The notes beneath the pieces are model-generated. The model saw only the letters and a program-made list of their open reading frames with translations. It did not search any database and was not told where the DNA came from. Shown piece by piece: positions 46,972 to 58,749 of a stretch of DNA of 64,000 bases. Both the position numbers and the translations under genes were made by a program. Numbering within the stretch: position 1 is the first letter of the stretch; each line of letters begins with the position of its first letter. The stretch is from Rhodothermus profundi (GTDB taxonomy: Bacteria; Bacteroidota; Rhodothermia; Rhodothermales; Rhodothermaceae), in NCBI RefSeq assembly GCF_900142415.1, contig NZ_FRAU01000006.1:1-64000 (forward strand). The letters run 5' to 3'.

Positions 46972-47137
46972 ATCTCATCAAGAACGACTGAGGGAACAGG
47001 CCCGATGACGTCGTAGCAACCGGGCATCTTCTACCGGCAGGAAGATGCCGCCTGGTGCTAAATCCTGCCCGGAGCGTGGGGCGGAAACAAGCGTGCGTTG
47101 CTGTTTCCCGAGCTGTGTCGTTCCGGGGAAGATGAGA
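46972..47137 (+). promoter_or_regulatory. SAM-I (S-box) riboswitch aptamer
   Basis: The core has the S-box signatures in order: CATCAAGAACGACTGAGGGA, GGCCCGATGA, GCAACC and GGTGCTAAATCCTGCCC. P1 forms between TCTCATC (46973-46979) and GATGAGA (47131-47137). A good P4 hairpin lies around 47080-47110 (GGAAACA...TGTTTCC). SAM binding should stabilise P1 and lower metB expression. Confidence 0.95.
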
Positions 47138-48389: not shown

Positions 48390-48454
48390 GTAGTTGCACA
48401 GGGTAGCTTTTAAGGGTTAAATTGAAAACATCCGCTTCGTTTTCGCAAAACGCT

Positions 48455-48556
48455 ATGCCGTCTATGCAGGTGCCAGGTTACCTTCCGCTGAGTGGCTGTC
48501 CGTGTTGTTGCTGCAACGCGGGAGGGGCCTGCTGTACCTGTAGATGCTGGCTTTGA
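48455..48556 (+). CDS. Cysteine-rich leader peptide of the siroheme operon
   Basis: A 33-codon frame that begins MPSMQVPGYLPLSG and then reads CPCCCC and, after NAGGA, CCTCRC, giving nine Cys codons in the last 19 positions. The first cluster lies at 48497-48514, immediately before the left arm of an antiterminator. The stop (48554-48556) precedes its right arm. This is the classical layout of an attenuation leader in which slow translation of the regulatory amino acid, here cysteine, permits read-through. The product itself is probably not functional. Confidence 0.85.
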   Translation: MPSMQVPGYLPLSGCPCCCCNAGGACCTCRCWL

Positions 48557-48613
48557 ATCCAGGCTATTCCTCTAATACAGCAGCCCCTCCCGCCATGCGG
48601 TGAGGGGCTTTTT
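48518..48613 (+). promoter_or_regulatory. Cysteine attenuator: antiterminator and intrinsic terminator before cobA
   Basis: The antiterminator pairs 48518-48527 with 48584-48593 and 48529-48536 with 48576-48583, 18 base pairs with one bulge. The competing terminator uses 48582-48593 with 48597-48609 around a CAT loop and ends in five Ts (48609-48613). The two structures share 48582-48593 and cannot coexist. A third pairing, between the leader start (about 48457-48471) and 48536-48551, could compete with the antiterminator when no ribosome is present. Confidence 0.85.
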
Positions 48614-48646: not shown

Positions 48647-49462
48647 ATGCAGCACCCCCATAACCGTTCTGCCGAGCCCGGTAAGGTTTATCTGGTAGGC
48701 GCCGGCCCGGGTGATCCCGAGCTGATTACCGTGCGCGGGCTGTCGCTCCTGCGCCAGGCGGAGGTTGTCGTTTACGACCGACTGGTGCATCCCGCCCTGT
48801 TGGAAGAAGTGCCTCCTACTGCCGAACGCATCTATGTGGGCAAAACACCGGGTCGCCACGCACTACCCCAGGAGAAAATCCAGGCGTTATTAATCGACCG
48901 AGCCCGCCGCAACCGGATCGTAGTCCGACTCAAAGGCGGCGACCCGTTCGTTTTTGGCCGAGGCGGCGAAGAAGCCCGAGCCCTGGCCCAAGCCGGCATT
49001 CCCTTCGAAATCGTCCCCGGCGTTACCAGCGCCATAGCTGTACCGGCCTATGCAGGCATTCCGGTAACGCAGCGCGGCGTAGCGGGCGCATTTGCCGTCG
49101 TAACAGGCCACCGCTGCGACCTGGAAACGCTCGCGCTGGACTGGTCGGCGCTGGCACGCATCGATACGCTGGTGCTGCTCATGAGCCTGCGCCGCCTACC
49201 TGAACTAACCCGCCTGCTGCGCGAAAACGGCCGCGCACCGGAGACCCCGGTCGCCGTCATTAGCAATGGCACAACGACGGCCCAGCAGCATGTCGTCGGC
49301 ACGCTGGCCGACATTGCCGAGCGCGCAACCTCCTTAAACACACCCGCTACCGTCATTGTGGGGGAAGTGGTCCGCCTGGCCAATGAGCTGGCCTGGTTCC
49401 ACCCTGCGCCCGCACCTTCTCCATTTGCCCGGCATCCTGAACCGCAGCCTTCCGATACATAA
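48647..49462 (+). CDS. cobA: Uroporphyrinogen-III C-methyltransferase
   Basis: A 271-residue SUMT that adds two methyl groups to uroporphyrinogen III, giving precorrin-2 for siroheme (or cobalamin). Motifs: [18 protein letters not shown] near the start, [17 protein letters not shown] and [22 protein letters not shown]. The ATG at 48647 gives the family start; the frame extends slightly upstream. It is 2 bp before the dehydrogenase/chelatase gene. With the cysteine leader upstream, the purpose is most likely siroheme for sulfite reductase. Confidence 0.95.
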
Positions 49463-49464
49463 CC

Positions 49465-50208
49465 ATGCGCGTTTACCCGATTTTTCTGAACAATCTGGAC
49501 GGACGTCGCTGCGTCGTTTTTGGCGGCACGCACGAAGCCGAACGCAAGGTGGCCGACCTGCTAGCCTGCGGCGCCGACGTAGTTCTCATCAGTGAAACGG
49601 CTACCCCCCAACTCCAGCAATGGGCCCGAGAAGGACGGCTCACCTGGCATGCCCGCAACTACCAGCCGGGTGACCTGAAAGGAGCCTTCCTGACCATTGT
49701 GGCCATTCCCGACCCTCAGGCCACTGAACCCATCTGGCAGGAGGCGCAGCGCGAACGCGTCCTGATCAACGCTATGGACGATGTTCCCCACTGCACATTT
49801 GTAGCCGGCGCGGTCGTTCGTCGCGGCCCGCTGGTCATTGCCATCTCGACCAGCGGCCAATCCCCTGCTCTTGCCGTGCGACTTCGCGAAATGCTGGAGC
49901 AGCACCTGGGGCCTGAATACGCACTCTTTCTGGATCTCATGGGAGCGCTGCGCCTGCCAATGGCAACCCACTATCCAGACTTTGGCGAACGCAAAGCGCG
50001 CTGGTATGCCCTGGTCGATAGCAATGTGCTTGACCTGCTACGCCAGCAACGCTTTGCAGCGGCGCGCACCCGCATTAGCGAACTCGTTGGCGAACCCGTC
50101 GCGGCTGCCCTGCCAGACCCCGACACAATGGCCCGTCTCTTTGCACATTATCAGGACGAATATGCCTGGTCCCCTTCTTCTAACCTGAACGCCCACGCTC
50201 CTCCCTGA
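49465..50208 (+). CDS. Precorrin-2 dehydrogenase / sirohydrochlorin ferrochelatase (CysG N-terminal type)
   Basis: A 247-residue Met8-like protein that oxidises precorrin-2 with NAD and inserts iron to make siroheme. Residues 1-25 read MRVYPIFLNNLDGRRCVVFGG, and the segment VLINAMDDVPHCTFVAGAVVRRGPLVIAISTSGQSPALA is typical of CysG/Met8, with the Asp in NAMDD acting in catalysis. It follows cobA directly, so both halves of CysG are encoded as separate proteins under one cysteine attenuator. Confidence 0.93.
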   Translation: MRVYPIFLNNLDGRRCVVFGGTHEAERKVADLLACGADVVLISETATPQLQQWAREGRLTWHARNYQPGDLKGAFLTIVAIPDPQATEPIWQEAQRERVLINAMDDVPHCTFVAGAVVRRGPLVIAISTSGQSPALAVRLREMLEQHLGPEYALFLDLMGALRLPMATHYPDFGERKARWYALVDSNVLDLLRQQRFAAARTRISELVGEPVAAALPDPDTMARLFAHYQDEYAWSPSSNLNAHAPP

Positions 50209-50365
50209 CGCCCTGCTACCTCACGTTCTACCTCCCTCACCTCGAATCAAAATACCGATAAGCCATGAATCAACCGCTACCCAGTACGCTGATTTGATAT
50301 TACCCCTTGACACCCATAACACATACAATAGGCTACCCCTTAAAAACCAAACCCCGAAAAAAGCC

Positions 50366-51208
50366 ATGGCACAGACCTCCCAGCGTCCTGCGGTTCTGGT
50401 AGATACCGAATGGGCTGAAGCGCACCTGAACGATCCCAACGTGCGCTTCGTCGAAGTTGACGTCGATACCTCCGCCTACGAAACGGGCCATCTGCCCGGT
50501 GCGGTAGGCTGGAACTGGAAAACGCAATTACAGGACCAGATCCGCCGCGACATTGTTCAGCAGGCCGACTATGAACGGCTGCTGAGCCAATCTGGCATTC
50601 GGCCCGACATGACGGTCGTGCTCTATGGAGACAACAACAACTGGTTCGCCGCCTGGGCCTACTGGCTCATGAAGTACTATGGCCACGAAGACGTACGCCT
50701 GATGGACGGCGGCCGCAAAAAATGGGTGGCCGAAAACCGGCCGCTAACCACCGAAGTGCCTGCTTACGAGCCGACCGATTATAAGGTGACCCGTATCAAT
50801 GCACACCTGCGCGCCTTCCGGGATGATGTAGCCGAACTGATCCGACAGGAGCGTTTCGCGCTGGTTGATGTGCGCTCGCCCGAAGAATTCCGCGGCGAAA
50901 TCCTGGCTCCTCCCGGCCTGTCGGAAACAGCCCAGCGGGGCGGTCACATTCCAGGTGCAACAAACATCCCCTGGTCACAGGCCGTGCGAGAAGACGGAAC
51001 GTTCAAGTCGATTGAAGAGCTCCAGGCGCTCTATGCCGGCCAAGGCGTAACACCCGACAAGCCCGTGATTACGTACTGCCGCATTGGCGAACGCTCCTCG
51101 CATTCCTGGTTTGTGCTCCACGAGCTACTGGGCTATCCAGATGTCCGCAACTACGACGGCTCCTGGACCGAATGGGGCAACCTGGTAGGCGCTCCTATCG
51201 AGCGCTGA
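50366..51208 (+). CDS. sseA: Thiosulfate/3-mercaptopyruvate sulfurtransferase (tandem rhodanese)
   Basis: A 280-residue two-domain rhodanese that moves sulfane sulfur to cyanide, thiols or proteins. Domain 1 (about 5-125) is inactive-type; domain 2 (about 150-280) carries the active-site Cys in TYCRIGERSSHSW. The CRIGER loop points to thiosulfate sulfurtransferase rather than the CG[S/T]GVTA mercaptopyruvate form. The ATG at 50366 fits the family start. It sits between the siroheme genes and a terminator, in keeping with a sulfur-metabolism neighbourhood, but a 157-bp gap suggests its own promoter. Confidence 0.9.
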   Translation: MAQTSQRPAVLVDTEWAEAHLNDPNVRFVEVDVDTSAYETGHLPGAVGWNWKTQLQDQIRRDIVQQADYERLLSQSGIRPDMTVVLYGDNNNWFAAWAYWLMKYYGHEDVRLMDGGRKKWVAENRPLTTEVPAYEPTDYKVTRINAHLRAFRDDVAELIRQERFALVDVRSPEEFRGEILAPPGLSETAQRGGHIPGATNIPWSQAVREDGTFKSIEELQALYAGQGVTPDKPVITYCRIGERSSHSWFVLHELLGYPDVRNYDGSWTEWGNLVGAPIER

Positions 51209-55641: not shown

Positions 55642-55823
55642 GCTATCCAGTTGTGTTTATGAGGTGGCTTTCGCCCGTGCACCGGTGTTGCTGTTGTTGT
55701 TGTGCCCGTCCAGTTGGAGGGGTAACAGGTGCGTGTGCACCGGCGAAAGCTCTGGATAGCCCATAGAGAAACCAAACGCCACGCACAGGTTGCCCCTCCG
55801 GAAGCTTCCGCGAGGGGTTTTTT
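55642..55823 (+). promoter_or_regulatory. Cysteine attenuator before cysM
   Basis: Three pairings are readable. The anti-antiterminator joins 55642-55650 with 55752-55760 (9 of 9 pairs) and 55667-55681 with 55736-55750 (14 of 15). The antiterminator joins 55716-55735 with 55780-55799, broken only by a 2-nt mismatch. The terminator joins CCCCTC (55793-55798) with GAGGGG, capped by the palindrome CGGAAGCTTCCG (55799-55810), and ends in six Ts (55818-55823). Antiterminator and terminator share 55793-55799. Confidence 0.87.
55659..55766 (+). CDS. Cysteine-rich leader peptide of the cysM operon
   Basis: A 35-codon frame starting MRWLSPVHR and followed by six consecutive Cys codons (55686-55703), with another Cys further on (GACAP). 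It ends at 55766, 27 bp before a terminator stem. The left arm of an antiterminator begins 13 nt after the last of the six Cys codons, as expected for ribosome stalling. The frame is open upstream to 55503, but this ATG lies nearest the Cys run. It matches the leader at 48455 in plan though not in sequence. Confidence 0.88.
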   Translation: MRWLSPVHRCCCCCCARPVGGVTGACAPAKALDSP

Positions 55824-55845: not shown

Positions 55846-56799
55846 ATGCTTACCGAAACAGCATCTGTGACCGTCGAGCCCCGGGCAGTTGCCCGCGCTG
55901 AGCTGCTTCGTGCTATCGGCCACACTCCCCTGATACGCCTTCGACGCGTGACGCGCCATTTGCCCGAAACTGTGGCCGTTTATGTAAAGGCCGAGCACTT
56001 GAATCCTGGAGGGTCTGTAAAAGATCGACCCGCCCTGCGCATGGTGCTTGAGGGACTGCGCAGTGGCGCGCTGCGCGAAGGACGGGTGCTCATTGATGCT
56101 ACCAGCGGCAACACAGGCATTGCCTATGCCATGCTGGGGGCCGCCCTGGGCTTTCCGGTAGCGCTGGCCATGCCGGCCAACGCCTCGCCTGAACGAAAGC
56201 GCATGCTTCAGGCCTACGGCGTGGAGCTCATCCTGACAGACCCCATGGAGGGAACAGACGGCGCCCAGCGCTACGTGCGCGCCCTTGTGCAACAGGAACC
56301 TGAGCGATACTTCTACCCGGATCAGTATAACAACGACGCCAACTGGCGCGCTCATTACGACGGCACCGGCGCCGAAATCTGGGAACAGACCGGCGGACGC
56401 GTCACCCACTTTGTCGCCGGGCTGGGCACAACGGGCACGTTCGTCGGGGTCAGCCGAAGGCTTAAGGCACACAACCCGGCCATCCGCTGTTACGCCCTGC
56501 AGCCCGACTCTCCCCTGCATGGACTGGAAGGGCTCAAGCACCTGGAAACGGCTATCGTGCCAGGAATCTATGATCCTTCGCTGGTAGACGAACACCTGAC
56601 CTGCTCAACCGAAGAAGCGTTCGAGATGACCCGCCGCCTGGCGCGCGAAGAAGGACTATTTGTGGGCCCCTCCTCCGGGGCCAATGTGGTAGCCGCCTTG
56701 CGCGTGGCCGAGCAACTGGAGCAGGGCGTTGTCGTCACTATCCTGTGCGATACCGGCGCGCGTTACCTGAGCGAATCGTTCTGGGAGGAAGGACCATGA
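55846..56799 (+). CDS. cysM: Cysteine synthase, CysM type
   Basis: A 317-residue PLP enzyme. The cofactor Lys is in NPGGSVKDRPA (about residue 48), TSGNTGIAYA binds substrate carboxylate, and GLGTTGTFVG binds PLP phosphate. The start at 55846 lies after the attenuator terminator; the longer open frame from 55729 would run through it and is rejected. It overlaps the JAMM peptidase gene by 4 nt. The downstream JAMM, carrier and activating enzyme indicate a CysM that takes sulfur from a thiocarboxylated carrier protein, possibly using O-phosphoserine, as in mycobacteria. Confidence 0.93.
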   Translation: MLTETASVTVEPRAVARAELLRAIGHTPLIRLRRVTRHLPETVAVYVKAEHLNPGGSVKDRPALRMVLEGLRSGALREGRVLIDATSGNTGIAYAMLGAALGFPVALAMPANASPERKRMLQAYGVELILTDPMEGTDGAQRYVRALVQQEPERYFYPDQYNNDANWRAHYDGTGAEIWEQTGGRVTHFVAGLGTTGTFVGVSRRLKAHNPAIRCYALQPDSPLHGLEGLKHLETAIVPGIYDPSLVDEHLTCSTEEAFEMTRRLAREEGLFVGPSSGANVVAALRVAEQLEQGVVVTILCDTGARYLSESFWEEGP

Positions 56800-57570: not shown

Positions 57571-58749
57571 ATGCCTGCAACAACGGCTGATATCACGCTG
57601 ACGCCGGAGGAGCTCCGGCGCTACAACCGCCACCTGATTCTGCCCGAAGTCGGACTCGAAGGCCAGAAAAAACTGAAAGCTGCTTCTGTACTGCTGGTCG
57701 GCGCAGGCGGCCTTGGCTCTCCCCTGGCGCTTTACCTGGCAGCCGCCGGCGTAGGTCGCCTGGGACTCGTCGACTTTGACGTCGTTGACGAGACCAACCT
57801 GCAACGCCAGGTGTTGCATGGCACCAAGGACGTAGGACGGCCTAAACTGGAGTCGGCACGTGATCGCATCCTTGATATCAACCCGCACGTGCAGGTCGAC
57901 CTCTACGAAACGCGCCTGACCAGCGAAAACGCTCTGGATATCATCAAGGAGTATGATCTGGTAGCCGACGGGACCGATAACTTCCCAACCCGTTATCTGG
58001 TTAACGATGCCTGCGTCCTGGCCGGTAAGCCCAACGTCTACGCCTCCATCTTCCGGTTCGAGGGTCAGGTGTCGGTCTTTGCCACGCCAGATGGTCCGTG
58101 CTACCGGTGCCTTTATCCGGAGCCCCCGCCCCCCGGCCTGGTTCCTTCCTGTGCCGAAGGAGGCGTGCTCGGTGTACTGCCGGGCATGGTGGGGACCATC
58201 CAGGCTACCGAGGTGATCAAGATGATCCTCGGGATCGGAACCCCGCTCATTGGCCGCCTCCTGCTCATCGATGCCCTGCATATGCAGTTTCGCACGCTCA
58301 AGGTGCGGAAAAACCCTGAATGCCCGATCTGCGGCGAACATCGCACCATCCACGAGCTCATCGACTATGAGCAGTTCTGCGGGCTGCCTCCGCGCAACGG
58401 TGAGGCCGCCCAGGCAGACGAAACCGTGCCCGAGATCACGGTGCACGATCTGAAAGCCCGCCTGGAGCGGGGCGACCGTCCCTTCATCCTGGACGTACGC
58501 AAACCCCACGAAGTGCAGATTGCCAGCATCGAACACGACCTGCTCATCCCAGTCGATGAGCTCCCTGAACGGCTCTCAGAGCTGGAACCGTACCGCGACC
58601 GCGAAATCATCGTGTACTGCCGCTCCGGAGCGCGTTCGGCCCGAGCCACTAAACTGCTCCGCGAAGCAGGCTTCCCCAACGTCAAGAATCTGAAGGGAGG
58701 GATCCTGGCCTGGAGCCAGGAAATTGATCCAAGTATCCCTCAGTACTGA
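57571..58749 (+). CDS. moeZ: Sulfur carrier adenylyltransferase/sulfurtransferase, MoeZ type
   Basis: A 392-residue two-domain enzyme. Residues ~12-265 are an E1-like MoeB domain: LVGAGGLGSPLALYLAAAGVG binds ATP, DGTDNFPTRYL follows, and zinc Cys pairs are CYRCLY and CPICGE. Residues ~290-392 are a rhodanese whose active Cys is in IVYCRSGARS. It adenylates the carrier's Gly-Gly end and loads sulfur from persulfide, supplying the cysM route. The ATG at 57571 is preferred to the longer open frame because it matches the family start. A bidirectional terminator closes the operon. Confidence 0.93.
   Translation: MPATTADITLTPEELRRYNRHLILPEVGLEGQKKLKAASVLLVGAGGLGSPLALYLAAAGVGRLGLVDFDVVDETNLQRQVLHGTKDVGRPKLESARDRILDINPHVQVDLYETRLTSENALDIIKEYDLVADGTDNFPTRYLVNDACVLAGKPNVYASIFRFEGQVSVFATPDGPCYRCLYPEPPPPGLVPSCAEGGVLGVLPGMVGTIQATEVIKMILGIGTPLIGRLLLIDALHMQFRTLKVRKNPECPICGEHRTIHELIDYEQFCGLPPRNGEAAQADETVPEITVHDLKARLERGDRPFILDVRKPHEVQIASIEHDLLIPVDELPERLSELEPYRDREIIVYCRSGARSARATKLLREAGFPNVKNLKGGILAWSQEIDPSIPQY

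Follow-up and report, generated by a model that had tools for sequence, protein, structure and literature searches.

The siroheme genes that begin with cobA in Rhodothermus profundi are most likely under the control of a trp/his-type transcription attenuator that is ribosome-mediated and specific for cysteine, with at least two of the kind in the window (the whole 64,000-nt stretch of DNA that was analysed); we assign this reading a probability of about 0.88. Sulfur assimilation in these bacteria is very probably turned on through ribosome stalling when cysteine is short. The region ahead of cobA combines all the sequence-level features of such attenuators for which we tested: a leader ORF rich in a single amino acid, an intrinsic terminator before the first gene, an antiterminator mutually exclusive with this terminator, a competing 1:2 hairpin, regulatory codons placed such that stalling would free region 2, and downstream genes that serve cysteine supply (the siroheme genes here and the cysM operon in the case of the second element).

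The leader peptide ORF (48455-48556, forward strand, as are all features of this locus) comprises 33 codons, nine of which specify cysteine (codons 15, 17-20, 26, 27, 29 and 31), and its translation reads MPSMQVPGYLPLSGCPCCCCNAGGACCTCRCWL followed by the stop codon. The 5' arm of the antiterminator (region 2; GCGGGAGGGGC-C-TGCTGTA, 48518-48536) begins 3 nt past the first Cys cluster and forms 18 pairs, with one bulged C, with the 3' arm (region 3; TACAGCAGCCCCTCCCGC, 48576-48593); the energy of this duplex is -38.8 kcal/mol (z -6.5 versus shuffles). Region 3 overlaps by 11 nt with the intrinsic terminator (regions 3:4, 48583-48613), made up of an 11-bp stem, GCCCCTCCCGC-CAT-GCGG-T-GAGGGGC (48583-48608), and a run of five T (48609-48613). 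A preliminary description of this DNA had already proposed the 33-codon frame with nine Cys codons as well as the 18-bp antiterminator 3 nt after the first cluster, and both are borne out; its terminator does carry the five Ts announced, but the 12 nt said to be shared with the antiterminator are in fact 11. Absent from that description was a third helix, a 1:2 anti-antiterminator hairpin (48459-48546) seen in the minimum free energy fold, the core of which pairs CAGGTGC (48467-48473) with GTACCTG (48534-48540). The minimum free energy fold of the whole leader consists of this hairpin and the terminator, and its energy lies 4 sd below that of dinucleotide shuffles.

Upstream of the leader, a candidate promoter could be read from the sequence (48394-48425), with TTG (48394-48396) and TAAATTGA (48418-48425) separated by a 21-nt spacer, an arrangement which we take to resemble the Bacteroidota -33/-7 type; TTG-N20/21-TAAATT is retained at this place among the genus members read. 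Downstream, the start codon of cobA, encoding uroporphyrinogen-III methyltransferase (48647-49462; Pfam TP_methylase, 1.9e-55), is separated from the U run by 33 nt. The following genes code for a protein of the precorrin-2 dehydrogenase/siroheme ferrochelatase type, corresponding to the N-terminal part of CysG (49465-50208; Pfam NAD_binding_7, Sirohm_synth_M and CysG_dimeriser), and for a two-domain rhodanese (sulfurtransferase; 50294-51208, Pfam Rhodanese in two stretches).

These parts suggest how the switch would operate. Transcription would start downstream of the metZ-like gene, at the putative promoter, and the leader would be translated by a ribosome which, given ample Cys-tRNA, would pass the first Cys cluster and cover region 2, leaving region 3 to pair with region 4 and transcription to stop at 48613. 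Were Cys-tRNA scarce, the ribosome would stall at Cys codons 15-18, and the freed region 2 would pair with region 3, allowing the polymerase to read through into cobA; if the leader were not translated at all, the 1:2 hairpin could favour termination. Since sulfite reductase uses siroheme as its cofactor, such a switch would couple cofactor supply to cysteine demand. Equilibrium folding of the free RNA is consistent with this scheme: with the ribosome A site at codons 15-18 the antiterminator has a probability of 0.94 and the terminator of 0.00, while from codon 20 on the terminator reaches 0.92-1.00, which places the predicted transition within the first Cys cluster. The rise of the terminator beyond the cluster is partly trivial, because less competing RNA remains, and for the leader without a ribosome the terminator probability takes one of two values, 0.33 or 0.97, according to the sequence ends used.

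Conservation within the genus points in the same direction. A Cys-rich frame is found at the same place before cobA in all seven genus genomes, with an ATG or GTG start aligned with 48455 in each of them, while the rest of the peptide varies (the leaders include CCGCPCCCPHTGGACCTCSLCG, CCGCRCCAPQRGGVCCTYSRCS, CCGCPCCAPHTGGVCYTCSCCS and MCLCPCCGRHTGGACHGCSR) and the Cys codons themselves exchange TGT for TGC. The terminator is retained across the genus, with a compensatory change from C-G to U-A in G001 and a G-U pair in G005, and not even the most diverged species lacks the antiterminator or the terminator, although its helices are partly built from different bases. In G001, the TGTA/TACA of the upper antiterminator is replaced by CTTG/CAAG, such that GGAGGGGCTTG pairs with CAAGCCCCTCC; by inspection, the same CTTG could also be used in an alternative 1:2 helix (GGCAAGCC with GGGCTTGCC), the 1:2 core being retained with single mismatches in G006 and G003. 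Formal covariation is nevertheless weak (one two-sided change in seven sequences, a score reached by 67 of 500 shuffles), because most stem positions are invariant. Both comparisons proposed at the outset thus came out in favour of the attenuator: relatives preserve the Cys frame (7/7 genomes) and also both stems, in which some compensatory changes occur and formal covariation is modest. At the level of sequence, this argues for the original interpretation by analogy with trp/his-type attenuation.

The number of Cys codons taken alone was rejected as evidence, as other ORFs and random sequence give similar counts: in other small ORFs of the window the count reaches 8-10 Cys in a stretch of 60 codons, and in first-order Markov sequences 6-11. 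The combination of a dense Cys cluster with a downstream intrinsic terminator is, by contrast, exceptional: scanning 719 kb of strand sequence for it returned almost only sites before sulfur operons. Nearly all of the 26 matches are found immediately upstream of sulfite-reductase, rhodanese-sulfite-reductase or cobA genes, the exceptions being a few alternative-frame duplicates, one match on the wrong strand of a hairpin and one chance match.

The second attenuator of the window (55659-55823, forward strand), 7 kb from the first, precedes a cysM-type cysteine synthase gene identified by homology search (55846-56799), the first of a cysM-mec(JAB)-cysO(ThiS)-moeB/rhodanese operon ending at 58749. 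The families of this operon were assigned by homology, and the Balneolaceae homologues match Pfam PALP, Prok-JAB and ThiS; together, cysM, JAB/Mec, ThiS/CysO and MoeB/rhodanese make up what we take to be the CysO-dependent cysteine synthesis set of mycobacteria. The leader peptide (55659-55766; MRWLSPVHRCCCCCCARPVGGVTGACAPAKALDSP and stop) includes six consecutive Cys codons (55686-55703), retained in all six genus members that have the cysM locus, and the 1:2, 2:3 and 3:4 helices are all complete. The 1:2 hairpin (55667-55750, from the minimum free energy fold) pairs GCTTTCGCC-GTGCAC (55667-55682) with GTGCAC-GGCGAAAGC (55735-55750) and is retained in five of six genus members. The antiterminator (55716-55799) pairs GGAGGGGTAAC (55716-55726) with GTTGCCCCTCC (55789-55799) and, in addition, GTGCGTG (55729-55735) with CACGCAC (55780-55786); 98.8% of its alignment cells are paired and two pairs are changed on both sides, a score reached by 19 of 500 shuffles. 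The terminator, CCCCTCCGGAAGCTTCCGCGAGGGG with six T, occupies 55793-55823. Equilibrium folding gives an antiterminator probability of 0.97-1.00 with the ribosome at Cys codons 12-15, and a terminator probability of 0.98 without a ribosome and of 0.97-0.99 from codon 18 on. This predicted switching is cleaner than that of the cobA leader, and the cysM attenuator is the best example of the set. As a separate observation on codon usage, TGT predominates among the Cys codons of the two leaders (11 TGT, 5 TGC), whereas the genes of the window favour TGC (20 TGT, 44 TGC; Fisher p 0.009 versus the two leaders).

Similar leaders occur well beyond the genus. In a loose test, in which weak leaders were counted and the genus was included, 22 of 25 Rhodothermales cysM loci were preceded by a Cys leader. 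A strict test, admitting ATG starts only and demanding at least four of one residue in ten, found Cys leaders in 18 of 25 cysM and 7 of 7 cobA upstream regions; 27 control genes were positive as well, 24 of them themselves sulfur operons, which leaves 3 of about 149. Cys leaders with terminators were also found before sulfite reductase or cobA in six Rhodothermales genomes (G010, G011, G012, G016, G019 and G025), and a Cys/Met leader with a strong terminator before the rhodanese-sulfite-reductase operon in 14 of the 15 Balneolaceae-type genomes read; in the fifteenth (L166) the match falls on the other strand, probably as the reverse complement of the hairpin. Several Balneolaceae possess, in addition, a divergent cysM-mec-cysO-moeB operon with a poly-Cys leader of its own (MFCCCCCCS and stop). 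Region 2 of the Balneolaceae leaders (GGTAGTGG) is retained but read in frames that differ by species (GSG or VVE), so it is the RNA and not the peptide that is conserved; pairing in these leaders amounts to 99.1%, and one pair of the terminator has changed in a compensatory manner in five sequences. Across 25 diverse leaders, antiterminator complementarity is pronounced (Fisher p 1e-10, against mononucleotide shuffles and with sequences that are partly related). The same duplex test gave no significant antiterminator in about ten of the 25, the more distant leaders concerned including those of cobA in G011, of SiR in G016, G010, G025, G019 and G012, and of cysM in G107, G043 and G102. The Balneolaceae leaders did not switch in equilibrium folding. 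Kinetic control, or a region 2 that was delimited incorrectly, may account for this and for the lack of significant antiterminators.

On balance, we lean towards a cysteine attenuation regulon that would span the class in Rhodothermota and Balneolota: the siroheme, sulfite reductase and CysM/CysO operons would each have a Cys-leader attenuator of their own, with in-frame Cys codons and switch topology preserved despite turnover of the peptide and RNA sequences. Among the outgroup loci, similar leaders in Anaerolineae (L067, where cysH follows, and L096) and in Gemmatimonadota (L046) suggest that the design is wider than the class. The two Anaerolineae loci carry two tandem Cys leader ORFs near cobA/cysH. 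No Cys leader with a terminator was found in 30 loci from a cysH/cysD survey of 118 Bacteroidota genomes, in which about 1.5 kb on each side was read, so that leaders further upstream would be missed.

Some members of this putative regulon may sense methionine along with cysteine. Sulfite-reductase leaders of Balneolaceae and of some Rhodothermales alternate the two residues (MCMCCMCCMC, ACMCMCMCM; L162-L176, L122), which raises the possibility that the leaders report sulfur status and that their Met codons are regulatory too. The clusters of the two window leaders, however, hold no Met, and the ATGs elsewhere may serve as internal starts or simply result from TGTATG repeats; we therefore regard sensing of both amino acids as tentative and rather unlikely.

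The sulfite reductase-cysH operon of R. profundi itself (G000:C5:269104-; L152-L158) is preceded in most genus members by a conserved leader ending in MLQVAGRCCCMG and a stop, for which no recognisable terminator was found in the R. profundi genome; this leader is possibly a translational or Rho-type cysteine attenuator. Its existence lends some plausibility to a switch acting mainly on translation or through Rho-dependent termination, as proposed for mycobacteria, instead of on an intrinsic terminator. For the window leaders we consider this very unlikely, as both carry a strong hairpin with 5-6 T that is retained in the genus, and the cobA start codon is distant from the U run. Genes for a transporter and a flavodoxin-like protein flank that of a second siroheme reductase, possibly of the nitrite type (G000:C2:51642-53177; L124, L161), and siroheme supply may also serve nitrate assimilation.

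Slightly less probable still is a reading of the Cys-rich ORF as the gene of a small protein with metal or redox activity and of the hairpin as the ordinary terminator of the upstream metZ-like transcript. Cys-rich small proteins do exist and the hairpin does lie 3' of the metZ-like gene, but the peptide is unconserved outside its Cys clusters (related leaders range from MFCCCCCCS to MRFITRCCCCCCPCCC..), region 2 inside the ORF is complementary to an arm of the terminator, and the same layout recurs before cysM, which has no metZ upstream, and before sulfite reductase. The strong folding of the leader and its switchable terminator might also suit a metabolite-binding riboswitch or a T-box with an incidental ORF, but this is scarcely credible, as the only Rfam match is a SAM riboswitch at 46972-47082, with none at either leader, and across the order no aptamer-like region is conserved, in-frame Cys codons being common instead. 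That riboswitch (RF00162, forward strand, 49.9 bits) precedes the Cys_Met_Meta_PP (metZ-like) gene; neighbouring RNA devices of two different kinds thus appear to control the methionine branch and the cysteine branch.

If the attenuator reading of the two leaders is correct, cysteine would rank with those amino acids whose own synthesis is governed by a genuine transcription-attenuation regulon, outside the phyla usually described for leader-peptide attenuation, and the coordination of siroheme, sulfite reduction and CysO-dependent cysteine synthesis would be explained. The Cys codons make the leaders recognisable, which allows the regulon to be traced in genome sequences and its members to be tested by simple reporter fusions.

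In the open-access literature we found no description of a cysteine attenuator for Rhodothermota, Balneolota or siroheme genes and no intrinsic-terminator cysteine attenuator on a cysteine-synthesis operon, both of which count as weak evidence, and nothing relevant on leader peptides of Rhodothermus, Salinibacter or Bacteroidetes. Within this scope the preliminary description, which knew of no case in Rhodothermota, is not contradicted, but cysteine leader peptides as such are already described in Actinobacteria and predicted before cysS in Rhodobacterales: cysteine attenuation itself is not new, and what is notable here is the apparent formation of a regulon. The uORFC-8-2 motif before cysS in Rhodobacterales, a predicted terminator-type ribosome-mediated attenuator (PMC8632094), likewise joins a short uORF with tandem Cys codons to an intrinsic terminator, but it belongs to Alphaproteobacteria, has two Cys codons and occurs only before cysS; the window leaders, before cobA and cysM, are set apart from it by position. 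Actinobacterial cys operons have candidate cysteine leader peptides without terminators (PMC1262725), and in M. smegmatis translation attenuation by a cysteine leader has been reported (Canestrari 2020, as cited in PMC13236596). The mycobacterial polycysteine peptides likewise precede cysteine-biosynthesis genes and bring about cysteine-responsive attenuation, but this is described as attenuation of translation, with no conserved terminator, whereas the window leaders combine an intrinsic terminator with an antiterminator. Lack of an intrinsic terminator, the mark of the mycobacterial type, does not apply to either of them, their terminators being strong. With the SAM riboswitch (RF00162), one of which lies 1.4 kb upstream in the window, they share RNA-level control of sulfur amino acid genes, but the riboswitch senses SAM by an aptamer and has no leader ORF. 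The closest correspondence is with trp/his attenuation, in the leader peptide with regulatory codons, the 1:2, 2:3 and 3:4 helices and the intrinsic terminator before pathway genes; the differences are that the amino acid is cysteine, that the targets are siroheme and CysM/CysO cysteine synthesis, and that separate attenuators sit on separate operons.
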